From positions 1 to 64,000 of the forward strand of contig DASXVS010000079.1 in NCBI GenBank assembly GCA_036504095.1: a stretch of DNA of 64,000 nt, written 5' to 3'. This DNA comes from Armatimonadota bacterium. Its GTDB lineage: Bacteria; Armatimonadota; DTGP01; JAKQQT01. Shown here in pieces: positions 20,006-27,433 of the stretch. Positions within the stretch are counted from its first letter, which is position 1. Each line of letters opens with the position of its first letter. Under the pieces are notes generated by a model. That model was not told where the DNA came from and searched no databases. It saw only the letters and a list, made by a program, of their open reading frames with translations. The translations under genes were made by a program, and so were the position numbers.

Positions 20006-21187
20006 TTATCTCGATATCAGCATCGCTACAGCGTGGGCGGCGAGGCCGGCGCCGGCGCCGAGATCGCCGAGCCCCTCGGCGGTGGTCGCCTTGATGCCGA
20101 CGGCATCCTCCGCGATTCCCAGGACGCGCGCGATGTTGGCTTTCATCGCGGCGGTGTGGGGACCGACTTTCGGGCGTTCCGCGATCACTGTGATATCCAC
20201 GTTGCCGGTGCGGTATCCGGCCGACCCGACGCGCGTCACCACCTCGGCGAGAAGGTCCATGCTGGAAGCCCCCCGCCACTGCTCGTCCGTGTTGGGAAAC
20301 AGGTGGCCGATATCGGGCAGCCCCGCCGCGCCTAGCAGGGCGTCCATCACGGCGTGCAGCACGGCGTCCGCATCCGAATGGCCAAGAAGGCCGTAATCGA
20401 GGCCGAAATCCACGCCGCCCAGGACCATTCTCCGGCCCTGTTCGAACCGGTGCACGTCGTAGCCGTATCCAATGCGAGGTAAATTCAAAGAGCCCCCTCC
20501 CCGCGAACGCAGGATGGCCTCCGCCAGCGCAAGGTCGTCCGGTGTGGTGATTTTCATGTTCAGGGGAGATGCCTTCACGAGGTGCACCGGGTACCCGGCG
20601 CTCTGCAGTAGAGCGGCCTCATCGGTGAACTGCGCGCCGGTACTCGTGGCGGCCTCGTATGCGTGGCGCAGATCGGCCGTACGGCAGCATTGGGGGGTCT
20701 GGGTGGCCCACAGTTGGCTCCGGTCCACCGTCTCATGCACCAACCCGTCCGGAGCGCGCTTCAGCGTATCGGCCACCGGTATCGCGGCGACGCCGGTCCC
20801 GCAATCGACGACGCTGCGAATACACCGGGCGATCGTTCCGGCATCGATCAGTGGCCGCGCCGCATCGTGGACCGCCACGATAGGTGACTCCACGATGGCC
20901 AAGGCGTTTTTCACCGAATCCTGGCGAGTCTCGCCGCCTTCAACGATTCGACAGGGGATCTTCAGGCCGGAGCGGAGTTGCGCGACGCTCTCCATATCGC
21001 TCGGGGAGACTGCCACAACGATGGCTTCAACGCAACCGCTGGCGGCGATGGCATCAAGCGTGCGGCGCAGAATGGGGCGCCCCAGCAAAGGCTCAAGCAC
21101 TTTGTTGCGGGGCGCCCCGAACCGCGAACCACGGCCCGCCGCAGGGACGATAGCCGTAACGCCGGCGCCTATTTCTCCAACGTCAAT
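20006..21187 (-). CDS. ispDF: Bifunctional IspD/IspF (MEP isoprenoid pathway) with a probable ATT start
   Basis: Makes CDP-methylerythritol (IspD, about 1-225) and cyclises it to the 2,4-cyclodiphosphate (IspF, from about 235). IspD motifs: AIVPAAGRGSRFG, EGGETRQDSVKNAL, VAVHDAARPL. IspF motifs: GYDVHRF (metal Asp and His), LLGHSDADAVLHA, DIGHLFPNTD and the C-terminal KATTAEGLGDLGAG. The nucleotide loop lies upstream of the first ATG, GTG or TTG (GTG at 21100), so a canonical start would delete it. The best fit is ATT at 21187, preceded by GGAG at an eight-base spacing and overlapping the end of the upstream gene by 19 bases. That gives 393 residues. A sequencing error is the main alternative. 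Confidence 0.9.
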   Translation of the reverse strand: MDVGEIGAGVTAIVPAAGRGSRFGAPRNKVLEPLLGRPILRRTLDAIAASGCVEAIVVAVSPSDMESVAQLRSGLKIPCRIVEGGETRQDSVKNALAIVESPIVAVHDAARPLIDAGTIARCIRSVVDCGTGVAAIPVADTLKRAPDGLVHETVDRSQLWATQTPQCCRTADLRHAYEAATSTGAQFTDEAALLQSAGYPVHLVKASPLNMKITTPDDLALAEAILRSRGGGSLNLPRIGYGYDVHRFEQGRRMVLGGVDFGLDYGLLGHSDADAVLHAVMDALLGAAGLPDIGHLFPNTDEQWRGASSMDLLAEVVTRVGSAGYRTGNVDITVIAERPKVGPHTAAMKANIARVLGIAEDAVGIKATTAEGLGDLGAGAGLAAHAVAMLISR

Positions 21188-21618
21188 TGCAGCATCTCCA
21201 CGTTTGCGTCTACGTTGTTCGCCATCATGCGCGGATGGGTGTCCACGATGAGTGACTTGCCGGGTGTGAATGTATAGGACAACGTCAGGTTGGTGGTCTC
21301 GTCGTTGCCGTCGGGCAGCGTCCGCTGGCGCTGCGTGAAGACGGTGGCCTTGACCACACCGTTGGCGTCCGGCGCATTGGCCGTGATTGTCACGCTTACC
21401 GTGTCCAGATCTGCCCTGTATCGGAACACCGCCTGATTCTCCTTGCCGGAGATGACAGCCGGTTTCAGTTTGGCGTAAGCGAAGGAGCGCTCGGCGCCGC
21501 TGTTCGTTGTCTTCATCAGCAGGACTTCCGGCTGAAACGTTGTCGGCGTAGCGGCGAGGCAGCCTGCCGCCGCGGCCGCAAGGATCATGGCCGCAAGAAC
21601 GCTGCGGAGTCTTTTCAC
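21169..21618 (-). CDS. Putative lipoprotein of unknown function
   Basis: 149 residues. The hydrophobic N-terminus ends in AAAAGC, an acceptable lipobox. The remaining 130 residues are beta-rich (QAVFRYRADLDTVSVTITANAP, LTLSYTFTPGKSLIVDTHP) and match no family I recognise. It sits between the PqqD-like gene (22 bases upstream) and ispDF (overlap), so it may belong with the PqqD/HprK/peptidase cassette. Confidence 0.7.
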   Translation of the reverse strand: MKRLRSVLAAMILAAAAAGCLAATPTTFQPEVLLMKTTNSGAERSFAYAKLKPAVISGKENQAVFRYRADLDTVSVTITANAPDANGVVKATVFTQRQRTLPDGNDETTNLTLSYTFTPGKSLIVDTHPRMMANNVDANVEMLQLTLEK

Positions 21619-21639: not shown

Positions 21640-21915
21640 TTACTCGATCGTGAGCATGCCCTTATCTGCCAGGGCGCGGCAGAACCCAAGCACGTCCTGT
21701 TCCGCTTCTTCGCGGTCGACATCGAATTCCTCAACAACGAGGTCAAGAATCTCGCTGACGGTGAGCGTGCCGTCCGCCAGTTCCCAGATACGCGTGCCCA
21801 CGGGGTTCAGCGAGTGCATTACGCTTTCTTGCGGCGTGACGATGACGGCTCCGTCTTCGAAAATGCGCCATGCGGCATCAGGGTCACGGGTGATGTAGCG
21901 ATCAAGGTCAAGCAT
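21640..21915 (-). CDS. PqqD-like peptide-binding (RRE-type) protein
   Basis: 91 residues from the ATG at 21915, which has GGAGG nine bases upstream. The sequence follows the PqqD pattern: DPDAAWRIFEDGAVIVTP, HSLNPVGTRIWELADGTLTVSEIL, then EEAEQDVLGFCRALADKGML. PqqD-type proteins use a winged-helix fold to bind a leader peptide and hand it to a modifying enzyme. Its start overlaps the end of the HprK-like gene by eight bases. No radical-SAM, transglutaminase-like (B2) or obvious precursor gene is adjacent. Confidence 0.85.
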   Translation of the reverse strand: MLDLDRYITRDPDAAWRIFEDGAVIVTPQESVMHSLNPVGTRIWELADGTLTVSEILDLVVEEFDVDREEAEQDVLGFCRALADKGMLTIE

Positions 21916-22696
21916 GTTCAAACAGCCTCCAGAAAGTATTATCGGGCAGGAAATGCATCTTGTTTGCGGGCACGCGGCCCACGATATCGGCAATTCGGTC
22001 AACGGCGGCGTTGACCAGGTGTCTCTCGTGTGCGAAAAACAGAACGCAGGGCATGAGCGCCTTCAGGGCGGTCTTCGGCGTAATGGGCTCCAGATACACG
22101 GTGGAATCCTTCACCAGGTTGTTGAGCCCCGCCAGCAGAGCGCTCACATTATCACCGTTTTTCTGCAATTCTCCCCAGAACGGGGTCCCATAGGCGCGGT
22201 AATTATCACCGTCTTTGCGCAGGATGGTCAACTCGTCGCTGAGTATTTGTCTCGGAGCGGACAGGCGCGCGGTTGTTGTCTTGCCCGCACCCGAAACACC
22301 GAAAAACAAATAAGCGTTTCCATTACTCACAACGGAAGCGCCGTGAATCATGGCGCCCTCCAGGTCCAGCAGGTGGGTGGTGAAGAACACGCGAAGGCAC
22401 GAGTCGAACGAGTACATGTTAGGAGCGCAGGACCCATCGATGGTCCTCGCTTCCTTGCTGACGTCCATATGGAAGTCGCGCCGCTCGTAATGGAAGCCCG
22501 CGTCGGTGGTCGTGACGCGCGGCTGGTCCTCACCGACGGTGGTGATTCCGCGTTCCGTGTCCACCGTCATGGTGAATCCGTCCACCTCGGGCGTCACAAA
22601 ACCTTCGTAGCGGTCGGCGATCTGTGCGATCAGTTCGGGATTCTCGGAGTTTATGGTCAGGCCGACTCCGGCAATTTCAAGATTAATGGTTTGCAT
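21908..22696 (-). CDS. HPr kinase-like P-loop protein (HprK C-terminal fold)
   Basis: 262 residues. The P-loop FGVSGAGKTT (132-141), preceded by GAMIHGASVV and followed by ILSDELTIL (Asp/Glu pair), matches the HprK/PEPCK-like kinase fold found beside PqqD proteins in peptide-modification clusters. The His in the loop of true HPr kinases is not evident, so it probably acts on a peptide or small substrate rather than HPr. The N-terminal 110 residues are a divergent domain (EIAGVGLTINSENPELIAQI). Coupled to pqqD by an eight-base overlap. Confidence 0.82.
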   Translation of the reverse strand: MQTINLEIAGVGLTINSENPELIAQIADRYEGFVTPEVDGFTMTVDTERGITTVGEDQPRVTTTDAGFHYERRDFHMDVSKEARTIDGSCAPNMYSFDSCLRVFFTTHLLDLEGAMIHGASVVSNGNAYLFFGVSGAGKTTTARLSAPRQILSDELTILRKDGDNYRAYGTPFWGELQKNGDNVSALLAGLNNLVKDSTVYLEPITPKTALKALMPCVLFFAHERHLVNAAVDRIADIVGRVPANKMHFLPDNTFWRLFEHA

Positions 22697-22720
22697 AGAA
22701 TATGGCTGTGCTGCTCCTGG

Positions 22721-23770
22721 TTATAGTTCCTTGCGCGTCACCTTGAGCTTGGGGCCGCGCGTCCCCATGCCGGTGTAATGGCTCGCGAAATCCTGCGCCA
22801 CGGAACCGGTGTCTTCCACGAATCCAAGCTTGGCCGCCAACCGCAGTGACGGGGTGTTCTGCTCAAACGCGGCGTATCGGATTTCCTGCACCCCGCGCTT
22901 CGCGGCATCCTCCAGGCCGGCCCGCACCATGCGTTCCGCGAGCCCGCAGCCTCGTGCGGTCATCTTGACGTAAACGCTCATCACCCACCAGCCGGCGGCC
23001 ATTGGGCCGTCGTCACCCAGCGGCCCCACAACGGCGTGCCCTGAAACGAAATCATCGACAACCGCGACCCAGAGAACGGCGCCCGCCTTGCGGGTTCCCT
23101 CCAGCATTTGCCGCGCCTGGCTGCGCACGTGGTCCATGTCGATGCCCCCCATCGGCGAATGGAGCGCCGCCTGTTCGCCGAACAGCATCGCCAGGCCGTC
23201 GATATCGTCCACCGTCGCCTCACGGACGACGATCACGCCCACGCGCGCCCGTCGCCGAGCGCGCCACGCCGGCAGCGCCGCCAATGCCGCAAGCAGCCGT
23301 CTGCGAAACAACAGGGCCCTCACGAAGGCTGTCGAGTACGGCGCCGAAATCCGCGCCATCGCGGCGCCCAGGCGCCTTCGCGCAGGGGTGCGAAGATCGA
23401 TGAATCGCCCGCGGCGGTCCAGCCCGATCACCTGTCCCAGTATGTCTTCGGCCTGAACCGGCGGATCGGGAACGAGCAGCGTATCGCCTTTCACAATCCA
23501 TTGTTTCGCCGGGCCGGAACGAATCGCCAACACCCGGTGCGCGAACAGCCGTGTCTCGCGCGTCGTCAGGATGATGTCGCCCACCTGGATGGAATCGGGA
23601 TCAACGCTCACAACCCGGCACCGGTCTCCCGCACGGATCGAGGGGAACATGGACAGACCGGTGAGATCCAGCGTCATCGGCGCTACGGTCAGCGCTTTTC
23701 GCAAGAGATCGATCTTGGCCGGATTCAGGGATGTGGCGGGGCGTTGAGCCATACATTCAAGCGCGGACAT
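22721..23770 (-). CDS. S26-type signal peptidase domain fused to GNAT acetyltransferase
   Basis: 349 residues. N-terminal domain: DLTGLSMFPSIRAGDRC (Ser40 nucleophile), FAHRVLAI (His78) and WIVKGDTL (Asp96), the Ser-His-Asp arrangement of SipW/ER-type S26 peptidases. It lacks a clear membrane anchor. From about residue 175 a GNAT domain follows: VIVVREATVDDIDGLAMLF, VSVYVKMTARGCGLAERMVRAGL as acetyl-CoA loop, then NTPSLRLAAKLGF. First gene of the HprK/PqqD cassette. The ATG at 23770 follows a TATACT hexamer by 11 bases, suggesting a leaderless transcript; an ATG at 23752 is the alternative. Confidence 0.85.
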   Translation of the reverse strand: MSALECMAQRPATSLNPAKIDLLRKALTVAPMTLDLTGLSMFPSIRAGDRCRVVSVDPDSIQVGDIILTTRETRLFAHRVLAIRSGPAKQWIVKGDTLLVPDPPVQAEDILGQVIGLDRRGRFIDLRTPARRRLGAAMARISAPYSTAFVRALLFRRRLLAALAALPAWRARRRARVGVIVVREATVDDIDGLAMLFGEQAALHSPMGGIDMDHVRSQARQMLEGTRKAGAVLWVAVVDDFVSGHAVVGPLGDDGPMAAGWWVMSVYVKMTARGCGLAERMVRAGLEDAAKRGVQEIRYAAFEQNTPSLRLAAKLGFVEDTGSVAQDFASHYTGMGTRGPKLKVTRKEL

Positions 23771-23877: not shown

Positions 23878-26187
23878 CTATATCGGGAACGCGTAAAGCC
23901 AACCGTTGGTATTGCCCGCGACGACGACGTCACCCGCGCCCGTCCCGGTGAGGCATGGCGCGGCCGTGAACATGCCCGGCAGCGCCATGGAACCCGCGTC
24001 GAACGTGCGCCACGTGCCCCCTGGATCGGCTGCGCCGCTGCCCCGCTTCAGAGCGTAAAGCCTGCCGTCCGTGCCCCCTATATAGATGACCCCGTTCAGC
24101 GCGATCGGTGACGAAGTAAACTCCTTCACCCCGTACGGTTTGAGGGGAAAATCGCTCAAGGCGGCGCCGGACGAAGCGCTGACGGCCGCAATCGAGTGGT
24201 TGTCCATTCCGAACGAGACGATGCCGGAGTTTCCATCCGCCCACGGCGACGTGCCGATATTGAACGGCATAGCGACGCCGGCGGCGGGCCATCCGTTCGC
24301 AGTGCCGCCGTTGCTGGCGTTCAAGGCCACGACCGAACCGGCCGCGGTGGTCACGTAGACGCTGTTATTGGTGGTCAACACAAAAGGAGCCGATGGGATT
24401 GGGCTGCCGCTGTCCTTCTGCCACAGAACCGTCAGAAGATCGCCTGTTACGCAACGCACTTTGCCGTCCGCGCTGGTCAACCATACATGCCCGTAGTCGG
24501 GCGCCGCCACCTGCGAGGTGATGGCGCCGAACACCGTCGGGAAGGTCCTGAGGAGCTCGCCCGTGCTCTGGCTGTACGAGTAGAGGCGGCCGTTGTCCGA
24601 GCCTATCAGAAGCATTCCATCCGCGGTGGGCGCGGGCGGGCATTGCAGATTGCCGCTGTTTGGCACCGTAACGGTCCATTTCAAAGCGCCGGTCAGGCGG
24701 TCCATGGCCACCATTTTCCCGGCAATGGTGACCGCGTAGACCGTGTCATCGTACACTGACGGACGGGCCTTTACCGCGGCGCCGAGGCCGCCGGAAGGGG
24801 GGTAACGCCATTTCACTACACCGGGCGTAAACCCCGATTGCGCGGTTGCCGGGATGCCGTACACCACTCCCGCGTCCGTTGCCGCATAGACCCACCCGCC
24901 GCTTGAGGACGGCGCCGAGTTGACGGGCGATCCCAATTTGACCGACCAGGTTCGCGGGAGCGGAACCGGCGACCACGTTCCGGAAGGCGCCGCCACAGCT
25001 GTGTTGTAGGTGGGCGTTACGTGGAAGTAATCGCAGATGCCTTCGTAAATCGCCTTCGCCACAAGCATCTTGTAGTTCTCATCGTGGAGCGCGGCGTTGT
25101 CCGGCGTAGGAGTGTCCATAAACGCCGTTTCAACGATACATGCTGGGCCTTTGAAGAAATTGTTCTCACCGTAATTGCCGGCGAATCCCTGAGCGCCGTA
25201 CGAATACCAGTTGCTCAGGTAGTTCGCCCGGAGTTCGGAGATTACGCGGGCGTGAACCTTTTGCCCCAGGTATTGGCTGCCGTACTGGTTGGCGGCGTCC
25301 GTGACCATGTAGCCGTTGCTGGTCTCGTACATCGTGAGCGTGCCGGACGCGGTTCCGCTGTCTCCGTTATTGTGGAGGCTGACCATTATATCCGCACCGC
25401 GCCATATAGCGTACAGAGGGCGCGTGGCGATGTCCCGGTTGGCATCCGTGGTCCTGCCGTTATCGTAGACGCTGCTGGGAGCTCCCTGGCGCACGTTGTG
25501 ATAGAGCGACGCCATCTGCCACCAGGGTTTGTTCGGCGCCGTCCGCGTCAGCCCGGCGAACGTCCACACGGTCGTACATTGGCCGTAGGTCTTGTCGAGT
25601 TCGCGGCAGGGATAGACGGTTGCGCCATTGTTCACGAGGAAGTTGTTGAGATACTGCATGAACTCGGGGTTCAGGAAGTCCTCGATGATACCTTGCCAAT
25701 ACCCGCGCTGCGTCGCCCACCCGGTGCCCGTCGAATTGGAGGTCCAGCCGTGCCCCGGGCTGATGGCGATAGTCTTTCCCGTGAGCGCTCCCACAGCGGG
25801 AGTGTACTGCGGCCCGCGCTGGACGCTCCGTGGTCCGGACTCCGGCACAACCTCCGGGACCGGTGGCAGGTAGGAAGACAGCAAACGGCCGTTGCAGGTG
25901 AAGCGCCATTTGGTGATGCCTTCCGTGCCGTGGAATGCGATTTGCGCGGCGTCCGTCAATGCTTCCAGGGCGCAGTCGTCGATGCCTGCGGCGGTTTCCG
26001 GCGAGAAGTCGATGGCAACGTTCCCGGCGACGAAGGATATGTTGGTGACCCCCGAACCGGATGGGAATCGCAGCGCCTTGAGAGCGGCGTCGATCTGGGC
26101 CTGCTGAGTGGTCATTGGCGCGGCGGCGAAAGCGGGCAGACCAAGCGCCATGCAGGCGCAGATGACCGTAAAACTGAGATGCCTCAT
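23878..26187 (-). CDS. Secreted N-acetylmuramoyl-L-alanine amidase fused to PQQ-type beta-propeller
   Basis: 769 residues from the ATG at 26187 with Shine-Dalgarno GGAGGATATCC. Signal peptide to about 23. Residues 25-105 resemble a GerMN-like domain. An Amidase_3-type domain follows (about 138-420): ISPGHGW with zinc His, DIMVSLHNNGD with the second His, and CIVETAFMDT with the Glu. The final 320 or so residues hold repeated strands (GGWVYAATDAGVVYGIPA, VYVTTAAGSVVALNAS, VIYIGGTDGRLYALK) of a PQQ-like propeller. It cuts peptide stems from peptidoglycan; the propeller may bind a partner or polymer. A TATACT lies about 33 bases upstream. Confidence 0.88.
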   Translation of the reverse strand: MRHLSFTVICACMALGLPAFAAAPMTTQQAQIDAALKALRFPSGSGVTNISFVAGNVAIDFSPETAAGIDDCALEALTDAAQIAFHGTEGITKWRFTCNGRLLSSYLPPVPEVVPESGPRSVQRGPQYTPAVGALTGKTIAISPGHGWTSNSTGTGWATQRGYWQGIIEDFLNPEFMQYLNNFLVNNGATVYPCRELDKTYGQCTTVWTFAGLTRTAPNKPWWQMASLYHNVRQGAPSSVYDNGRTTDANRDIATRPLYAIWRGADIMVSLHNNGDSGTASGTLTMYETSNGYMVTDAANQYGSQYLGQKVHARVISELRANYLSNWYSYGAQGFAGNYGENNFFKGPACIVETAFMDTPTPDNAALHDENYKMLVAKAIYEGICDYFHVTPTYNTAVAAPSGTWSPVPLPRTWSVKLGSPVNSAPSSSGGWVYAATDAGVVYGIPATAQSGFTPGVVKWRYPPSGGLGAAVKARPSVYDDTVYAVTIAGKMVAMDRLTGALKWTVTVPNSGNLQCPPAPTADGMLLIGSDNGRLYSYSQSTGELLRTFPTVFGAITSQVAAPDYGHVWLTSADGKVRCVTGDLLTVLWQKDSGSPIPSAPFVLTTNNSVYVTTAAGSVVALNASNGGTANGWPAAGVAMPFNIGTSPWADGNSGIVSFGMDNHSIAAVSASSGAALSDFPLKPYGVKEFTSSPIALNGVIYIGGTDGRLYALKRGSGAADPGGTWRTFDAGSMALPGMFTAAPCLTGTGAGDVVVAGNTNGWLYAFPI

Positions 26188-26254
26188 GCCTGGATATCCT
26201 CCACGCTCAGTATAACCAAACGGTCGATTCACCGCCAGCATTGCGATGAAGCTG

Positions 26255-27433
26255 TCAGCGCGGTAATGCGCGAGCGGACTGCGCGAGGCGTTCTTCGTAG
26301 AACGCCTGCAATGACGCAACGCTGTTATCGATGTTGAACGGCCCGGCCTGCATCGCTTCGAATGCCTGTGACCGTGTTATAGCAGGCTTATTCGCCGCCA
26401 TCTCCAACAGGTCTCCCGCCCAATCCGCAGCCGAAAGCTGGATGGACAATCGACGCACGAGCTGCGGGACCGCATCCATCTCCGACGTAATAGTGTCCGA
26501 AACGAGCATGGGTAGGCCCGCTGCCTGAGCCTCCATGCCCACCAGGGGCAGACCCTCGTAGAGTGACGGGAGGCAAAACGCGTCCATCGCTCCGGCGATG
26601 AGTCTGGGGGCATCGGCGCGCTGTCCGAGGAAGATGACGCGGTCGCTAAGGCCTCGGTCACTAACCCGGTCCATCATATCGTGCTTCATATCGCCGTCTC
26701 CGAGAAGGAGAAAGCGAAGGTTGTCGCGCCTCCTGCAGGCTTCGGCAGCGATATCGATCAGATACCCGTGGTTTTTCTGGTAGACAAACCGCCCGACGTG
26801 CCCGACGACGAATGCGTCGGCCGGGATGCCAAGCTCAGCTCGAACGGCTATGTCCGGCCGCGCGGCCCGGAACGGTTCGATATCGATGCCGCAGTACACG
26901 AGACGGATACGAGGGTTCTCGCGCCAGCTATCGCCGAATAACTCCTGGGCCGCCGGCATTGAACACGCTATTCCCGCATTCCACAAGCGCGCCAGGTAGC
27001 GGTTGCGCGAGGCAACGCGGATCCTGCGCATTGTGGTGGTATTCCCGACTGGCGCGTTGTGGCTGTGCGCGACCCGAACGGGGATCCCGAAGCGTTTTGC
27101 GAGCTTGAGCACGTAGCCGCGGTTAAACTGGTTGTGGCAGTGTACGATGTCATACGGTCCGCTTCCAAAGACGATGTCACGCAGCGCGCCGGCGAAGGTG
27201 GGCCGGCCGGGCCGACGGGCCAGCGAGTACACTTCGCAGCCCAGCGCCTCGAACTCGTCGACGAGTGGCGTACGTTCGAGATCGCGTACTGCGAGGTTCA
27301 TCTGGAACCGGCTGCGGTCCACGTGGCCGAGCACGTGCAGGAGCCAGCACTCCACGCCCGCCCGCTCTAAGTGTTTGATCACGTGCAGGACGCGGATGGG
27401 CCTATCGGATTCGTAGCGCGCGGGAGTACTCAC
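26255..27433 (-). CDS. Glycosyltransferase family 4-like (GT-B)
   Basis: 392 residues if translation starts at the GTG at 27433; an ATG at 27550 would add an unlikely 39-residue basic extension. GT-B retaining transferase: N-terminal RVLHVIKHLERAGVECWLLHVL, central PRIRLVYCGIDIEPF, then VGHVGRFVYQKNHGYLID and the C-terminal E-x7-E-type motif LPSLYEGLPLVGMEAQAAGLPMLVSD. It transfers a sugar to a lipid or glycan acceptor at the cytoplasmic face. The methyltransferase gene lies upstream and the amidase downstream, both on the same strand, so a cell-envelope glycan is a fair guess. Confidence 0.9.
   Translation of the reverse strand: MSTPARYESDRPIRVLHVIKHLERAGVECWLLHVLGHVDRSRFQMNLAVRDLERTPLVDEFEALGCEVYSLARRPGRPTFAGALRDIVFGSGPYDIVHCHNQFNRGYVLKLAKRFGIPVRVAHSHNAPVGNTTTMRRIRVASRNRYLARLWNAGIACSMPAAQELFGDSWRENPRIRLVYCGIDIEPFRAARPDIAVRAELGIPADAFVVGHVGRFVYQKNHGYLIDIAAEACRRRDNLRFLLLGDGDMKHDMMDRVSDRGLSDRVIFLGQRADAPRLIAGAMDAFCLPSLYEGLPLVGMEAQAAGLPMLVSDTITSEMDAVPQLVRRLSIQLSAADWAGDLLEMAANKPAITRSQAFEAMQAGPFNIDNSVASLQAFYEERLAQSARALPR

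Follow-up and report, generated by a model that had tools for sequence, protein, structure and literature searches.

Several described systems resemble, each in part, the locus reported here. Lasso-peptide clusters of Firmicutes (paeninodin with PadeK, and pseudomycoidin with K and N) share with it a PqqD/B1 protein, a YxxP leader, an HprK fold and a C-terminal Ser, as well as a nucleotidyltransferase, which on our side is found in related Armatimonadota loci. Lasso precursors carry a YxxPxL leader motif (PMC10368454), and the HprK homologues of lasso-peptide clusters phosphorylate the C-terminal Ser with little regard to the rest of the peptide (PMC8498205). The SynChlorMet cassette (TIGR04248-04251, ScmC-F) brings an HprK-like protein, a PqqD protein and SPASM radical SAM enzymes together; in PQQ (PqqA/PqqE/PqqD) and mycofactocin a SPASM radical SAM enzyme and a PqqD protein act on a short peptide, and the precursor is conserved; and GeoRSP, other SPASM/PqqD RiPPs, sactipeptides and ranthipeptides combine a radical SAM-SPASM enzyme, PqqD and a Cys-containing precursor.

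We propose, with a probability of roughly three in four, that a cassette in the window (the whole 64,000-nucleotide stretch of Armatimonadota DNA analysed here) encodes, on contig C79, three of the four components needed for maturation in a RiPP-type pathway, whose genes lie at no fewer than five places in the genome and whose steps would follow the order set out below. The evidence comprises the genes present, their conservation and co-occurrence, motif statistics and folds, with all lineages here represented by uncultured assemblies. We class the system as a RiPP-type pathway whose genes are dispersed and which apparently shares its kinase logic with some lasso clusters. The cassette and its surroundings are as follows:

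20006-21100, IspD-IspF fusion gene, downstream of the cassette
21169..21618, minus strand, secreted protein P0004, 149 aa, beginning 21 bp after the PqqD gene
21640..21915, minus strand, PqqD-type leader-binding protein P0003 (RRE fold), 91 aa, ATG at 21915
21908..22696, minus strand, HprK/PEPCK-fold protein P0002, 262 aa
22721..23770, minus strand, S26 peptidase-GNAT fusion P0001, 349 aa, from profile matches and predicted structure
23878..26319, minus strand, secreted amidase_3 + PQQ_2 beta-propeller protein, adjoining the cassette

The genes for P0001 and P0002 are 24 bp apart and those for P0002 and P0003 overlap by 8 bp; coordinates, profile matches and folds confirm the tightly coupled minus-strand trio (S26-GNAT, HprK-like, PqqD) that a preliminary description of this DNA had recognised. 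A longer reading frame for P0003, starting at TTG 22002, is less likely than the ATG start. The IspD-IspF fusion gene is apparently ordinary.

The window genome (G000) is 98.6% complete and holds a single PqqD copy, that of the cassette. The preliminary description had also noted the lack of a B2 transglutaminase-like peptidase, and this extends to the genome, in which PF13471 has no match. We therefore rejected a lasso-peptide pathway with unusual parts, which we regard as extremely improbable: a PqqD protein near lasso B1, a YxxP leader, a C-terminal-Ser kinase and NTP_transf_5 in related clusters all recall the Firmicutes lasso clusters, yet a radical SAM enzyme (described below) is found instead of B2, no lasso cyclase-like (asparagine-synthase-like) gene was noticed beside the loci read, and an S26 peptidase, a Cys core and dispersed genes set the system further apart.

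In a sister genus (G001, an Armatimonadota MAG with contigs JAKQQT; L032) the order S26-GNAT, HprK, PqqD, secreted protein is retained, and in G002, from a different family of the same class (L033), the first three genes are present and the secreted protein is missing; since the three-gene unit is conserved at both distances, it is not a chance grouping. The 149-residue P0004, put forward earlier as a lipoprotein substrate, was rejected as such: the G002 locus lacks it, its Cys does not lie in a lipobox conserved in G001 (where the signal peptide ends AWSA), and its dN/dS of ~0.5 makes it the least constrained and fastest evolving gene of the set. It is probably not the substrate and may be a bystander. 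These observations, together with the lack of a YxxP leader in P0004, weigh against a stand-alone minimal system in which S26-GNAT, HprK and PqqD process this protein without a radical SAM enzyme. That P0004 follows PqqD so closely and keeps its place in the sister genus, and that the genome has no B2 gene, would fit such a system, but the genome also encodes a cognate radical SAM enzyme and three precursors that co-occur with the cassette enzymes, and we judge it highly improbable.

P0001 matches TIGR02228 (archaeal-type signal peptidase I) with E=3.9e-12 and 46.3 bits, just below the cut-off of 51.85, and the GNAT family PF00583 with E=3.5e-10. All 6 fusions compared keep the SEC11-type catalytic residues Ser-His-Asp (S40, H78 and D96), and hydropathy gave no membrane helix that could serve as a SEC11-type anchor. 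In an AlphaFold model (pLDDT 78) the S26 domain spans roughly residues 17-125 and is joined by a helical linker (129-175) to the GNAT domain (180-349); the best matches in a fold search are GNAT N-acetyltransferases. We propose that P0001 is a soluble leader peptidase and N-terminal acetylase; such a fusion predicts a cut-and-cap enzyme, which is directly testable. Full-length fusions number 8 among 291 Armatimonadota genomes (families f1, f2, f10 and f15), and an HprK-like gene adjoins every one of them (window, L032, L033, L047, L048, L058, L149 and L150), so the co-occurrence search suggested in the preliminary description came out in favour of a linked set; in G010 the HprK-like match lies directly upstream of the fusion. 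The same description had the fusion taking the place of a B2 or radical SAM enzyme, an idea that fails because the cognate radical SAM enzyme is encoded in the same genome; the fusion is the pathway's usual S26 peptidase with an extra GNAT domain. Because that domain is confined to some lineages, its role may be accessory or different. The S26-domain tree, in which f1, f2 and f10 group weakly and f15 stands apart, is compatible with either one or several GNAT fusion events. At another locus (L046 5558-10112, in G083) the peptidase is joined instead to the leader binder, as an S26-PqqD fusion, and two radical SAM genes there come near ScmE and ScmF (201 and 274 of 400 bits).

P0002 resembles ScmC, HprK_rel and PEPCK, every score being below cut-off, and its predicted structure (pLDDT 91) matches PEPCK and HPr kinase/phosphatase folds. 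With the Walker A motif GVSGAGKTT and conserved His118 and Asp154, all invariant or nearly so, it has the PEPCK/HprK fold and Walker A motif of a PadeK-like tailoring kinase, and we propose that it may be a kinase for peptides with a C-terminal Ser. P0003 matches PqqD (PF05402, E=3.6e-19), as expected of an RRE leader-recognition protein, and its PDB matches include the lasso B1 proteins TbiB1 (5v1u, E=7e-9) and TfuB1. In NCBIfam, P0002 and P0003 match ScmC and ScmD best, but the SynChlorMet cut-offs are not reached (29.7 of 125 bits for P0002, 45.9 of 100 for P0003 and 96 of 400 for the radical SAM enzyme described below), and the present system has one radical SAM enzyme, not two, and includes S26 and S26-GNAT proteins. 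At L044 (9338-10146, in G043) the HprK-like gene is broken into two overlapping frames, by a frameshift or an assembly error; the genome otherwise retains the radical SAM enzyme, PqqD, S26 and precursor.

The cassette contains no radical SAM gene, and a precursor within it was rejected, as no short ORF with the precursor motif was found nearby. Other Armatimonadota loci (L047, L048, L051 and L056) carry the same enzymes together with a SPASM radical SAM enzyme, NTP_transf_5 (PF14907) and short peptides, for example MRERKRYEKPVLSKVELRADEAVLAACKTMGDAGCQGVGDPPPKSAS; given these fuller clusters in the phylum, matching parts were sought elsewhere in the window genome. (At L047, 12197-12544 in G041, two tandem precursors, related yet different, lie beside a single enzyme set.) Searches with TIGR04085 and PF13186 found several SPASM proteins in G000, and a precursor model found three peptides; the features assigned to the system, all in G000, are:

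C46:59144-60331, orphan SPASM radical SAM enzyme, with orthologues in G001 and G002
C13:70873-71034, precursor
C53:13337-13504, precursor
C17:46011-46163 (L174 8008-8169), precursor

The C46 enzyme has the CxxxCxxC motif and the SPASM cysteines, and its orthologues share 85% identity in G001, 55% in G002 and 45-46% in genus f4/g5. Among the cluster-borne radical SAM enzymes compared, the nearest is one of G006 that adjoins HprK and PqqD; four further SPASM matches in G000 (on C72, C24 and two on C41) were set aside as less like the cassette-type enzymes. Its best NCBIfam match is the mycofactocin enzyme MftC (153 of 265 bits), with PqqE at 97 of 381, both below cut-off, and the system differs from PQQ and mycofactocin by its kinase, S26 peptidase and Cys core, a redox-cofactor role being without support. 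Genus f4/g5 also has full-length relatives of the window HprK, and its set is split over three loci (S26-PqqD-precursor; HprK; radical SAM).

The first precursor model (A1), built from other Armatimonadota clusters, had no significant match in G000-G002; a wider model (A5) that included the f4 precursors found 3 in G000, 2 in G001 and 1 in G002. The three of G000 have 53-56 residues, a YxKP leader motif and a core of the form ALACGKCTSGP..C...S, as in MNRMKSRSEEAKEKKVYSKPTVVSEQMFETAALACGKCTSGPFPQFACGSLPQAS. In the C17 peptide Tyr replaces the final Ser and CGMC stands in place of CGKC; it may be a paralogue that is diverging, and as such a test case for the proposed kinase role. With a tighter profile (E 1e-28 to 1e-30) the family is found in 11 of the 291 genomes and in none besides. 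It has no Pfam or NCBIfam model, one marginal match (E=0.05) being due to chance, and its 29 core precursors, from three phyla, are short encoded peptides with leader and core, as expected of RiPPs. The HprK-like kinase, C-terminal Ser and S26 peptidase distinguish the system from GeoRSP, sactipeptides and ranthipeptides, no family model fits, and the GeoRSP NCBIfam cut-offs are not reached. A radical SAM gene and leader peptides elsewhere in the genome are what the preliminary description had named as decisive against its minimal system without precursor or radical SAM, and G000 contains them, the C46 enzyme and the three peptides. The lack of both was rightly described for the cassette itself and does not hold for the genome; of the overall interpretation, the peptide-modification system and the co-occurrence of S26-GNAT, HprK and PqqD survive, and the minimal system does not.

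A scan of 84,980 species genomes gave 23 precursor loci: 8 in Armatimonadota, 13 in Elusimicrobiota and 2 in Acidobacteriota (some records are titled only 'bacterium', among them L194, which was assigned to Elusimicrobiota by gene content and tree position). All 13 Elusimicrobiota-type loci have the precursor together with PqqD, S26 and a radical SAM enzyme, and 11 also have HprK, the other two beginning close to or at the end of a contig. Most are arranged HprK-PqqD-precursor-S26-rSAM, with L192 and L200 as exceptions. The two Acidobacteriota loci have the order NTP-HprK-PqqD-rSAM-precursor, and S26 was not detected at either. The class-defining modifying enzyme is thus linked to the precursor in one operon in Elusimicrobiota and Acidobacteriota, and is unlinked but co-occurring in Armatimonadota. 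Nothing else argues as strongly as this operon arrangement for joint action of the window genes with the C46 enzyme and the three peptides: because most of the same genes form one operon in two phyla, we read the window as holding part of a real, split-up pathway for a peptide, as yet without a name, and not a cassette without a substrate. At L190, L191, L194 and L201 the Elusimicrobiota operon directly follows pilin-like genes (with a prepilin N-terminal motif); after it come genes for an Rrf2-like regulator and for a secreted protein of very large size, which is fn3-rich in L190.

Like the precursor family, the radical SAM orthologue occurs in 11 of the 291 genomes, 10 being common to both (Fisher p ~1e-16), and full-length HprK against the radical SAM orthologue among 121 relatives gave 12/14 versus 0/107 (p=8e-15), values that treat genomes as independent although related genomes are not, most positives coming from one genus. 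In G031 the radical SAM gene is present and the precursor was not detected; an assembly gap is possible, since the only PqqD of this genome is like the distant one that its sister genomes have as a second copy. The radical SAM and HprK trees both split a group of f1, f2, f4, Elusimicrobiota and Acidobacteriota from the other Armatimonadota clusters. Precursor orthologues of two sister genera have dS of 0.66 and 1.27 and dN of 0.04 and 0.37; their dN/dS of ~0.06 and 0.29 indicates that these peptides are under constraint. The scattered genes, and a C17 peptide with neither a C-terminal Ser nor the Lys of CGKC, could also be read as what is left of a decaying RiPP cluster, with the radical SAM gene and the precursors surviving separately and functionless. 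This is very unlikely, as no piece is broken and all are kept from genus to genus despite high synonymous divergence (dN/dS 0.06-0.37), and the same components are scattered yet retained in genus f4/g5.

The last residue is Ser in 28 of the 29 core precursors and in 8 of the 10 distant ones, whereas among 750 ORFs it is Ser in 5.9%. That position had no part in the search patterns, and the residues before it vary (QAS, SNS, RNS, KFS, RLS, KAS). A YxxP-like leader motif ([YW]xxP or [YW]xP) is present in 39 of 39 precursors. The constancy of ALA before the core Cys in the scanned loci is partly circular, because LACG, or ALA followed by Cys, belonged to the search patterns; in the distant precursors A or S precedes the core Cys in 9 of 10, and ALA is not retained. 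Signal peptidases follow a -3/-1 rule at the cleavage site, and no membrane helix was found in the precursor leader.

From these features we suggest the following route. PqqD would hold the YxKP leader, as the leader motif common to all precursors suggests, and the radical SAM enzyme would modify the Cys-rich core (CGKCTSGP..Q..C), a Cys thioether being a guess at the product. The HprK-like kinase would then phosphorylate the C-terminal Ser, judging from the Ser enrichment and from the lasso HprK homologues. The soluble S26 domain may cut between ALA and Cys, in keeping with the -3/-1 rule and with an enzyme and a leader that both lack a membrane helix, and the fused GNAT domain might acetylate the freed N-terminus, the least certain step, suggested by the fusion. 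For the third step a different role is conceivable, in which the HprK-like protein binds nucleotide and works as a regulator or as a chaperone gated by the nucleotide, the C-terminal Ser being, for example, a recognition tag; the similarity to the HprK family is weak, with all scores below cut-offs, and the nearest solved folds are PEPCKs. We consider this distinctly unlikely, given that the Walker A motif and the His and Asp hardly vary and that the pairing of a C-terminal Ser with an HprK homologue is experimentally known from paeninodin (PMC8498205).

The literature searched on SynChlorMet and on HPr kinase with radical SAM and PqqD (mostly outside subscription journals) does not describe the system, and no paper in it combines a radical SAM RiPP enzyme, a C-terminal-Ser kinase and a signal-peptidase-like leader peptidase. 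On the proposed reading, a precursor family without a Pfam or NCBIfam model extends over three poorly cultured phyla, and the genes of one RiPP pathway can lie scattered at many sites of the chromosome while its enzymes act in trans on several precursors, an arrangement that gene-cluster searches would miss.

Genes for secreted PQQ_2 (BamB-like) beta-propellers adjoin the window cassette and the precursors C13 and C53, as well as the G001 orthologues of these two; others lie near the radical SAM gene of G002, at two genes' distance from the f4 HprK, next to S26-GNAT in f10 and, in one Acidobacteriota genome, downstream of the operon. The genes are:

Window 23878-26319, PQQ_2/BamB-like
L172 8459-9913, PQQ_2/BamB-like
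L173 8540-10567, PQQ_2/BamB-like
L176 4246-6972, PQQ_2/BamB-like
L087 5085-6767, PQQ_2/BamB-like
L035 11248-12999, PQQ_2/BamB-like
L048 9244-11697, PQQ_2/BamB-like
L058 1641-3545, PQQ_2/BamB-like
L202 6939-10328, PQQ_2/BamB-like

G000 has ~13 PQQ_2 genes, and 3 of its 5 system loci lie within 0.5 kb of one (chance about 4e-6 to 1e-5, calculated post hoc); because the family was chosen after the fact, the pattern is a lead and not a result. A similar link in Elusimicrobiota was rejected, the large neighbours there being fn3/Ig proteins, along with pilin-like genes. It is conceivable, if unlikely, that the scattered precursors give rise to one conserved peptide-derived ligand or prosthetic group used by secreted PQQ_2-type propellers; the logic of PQQ, a cofactor from a ribosomal peptide used with a propeller, would then have been reinvented with a kinase and a peptidase-acetyltransferase. 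Since such propellers recur beside the scattered parts, the amidase_3 + PQQ_2 protein next to the cassette is a possible partner of the pathway.
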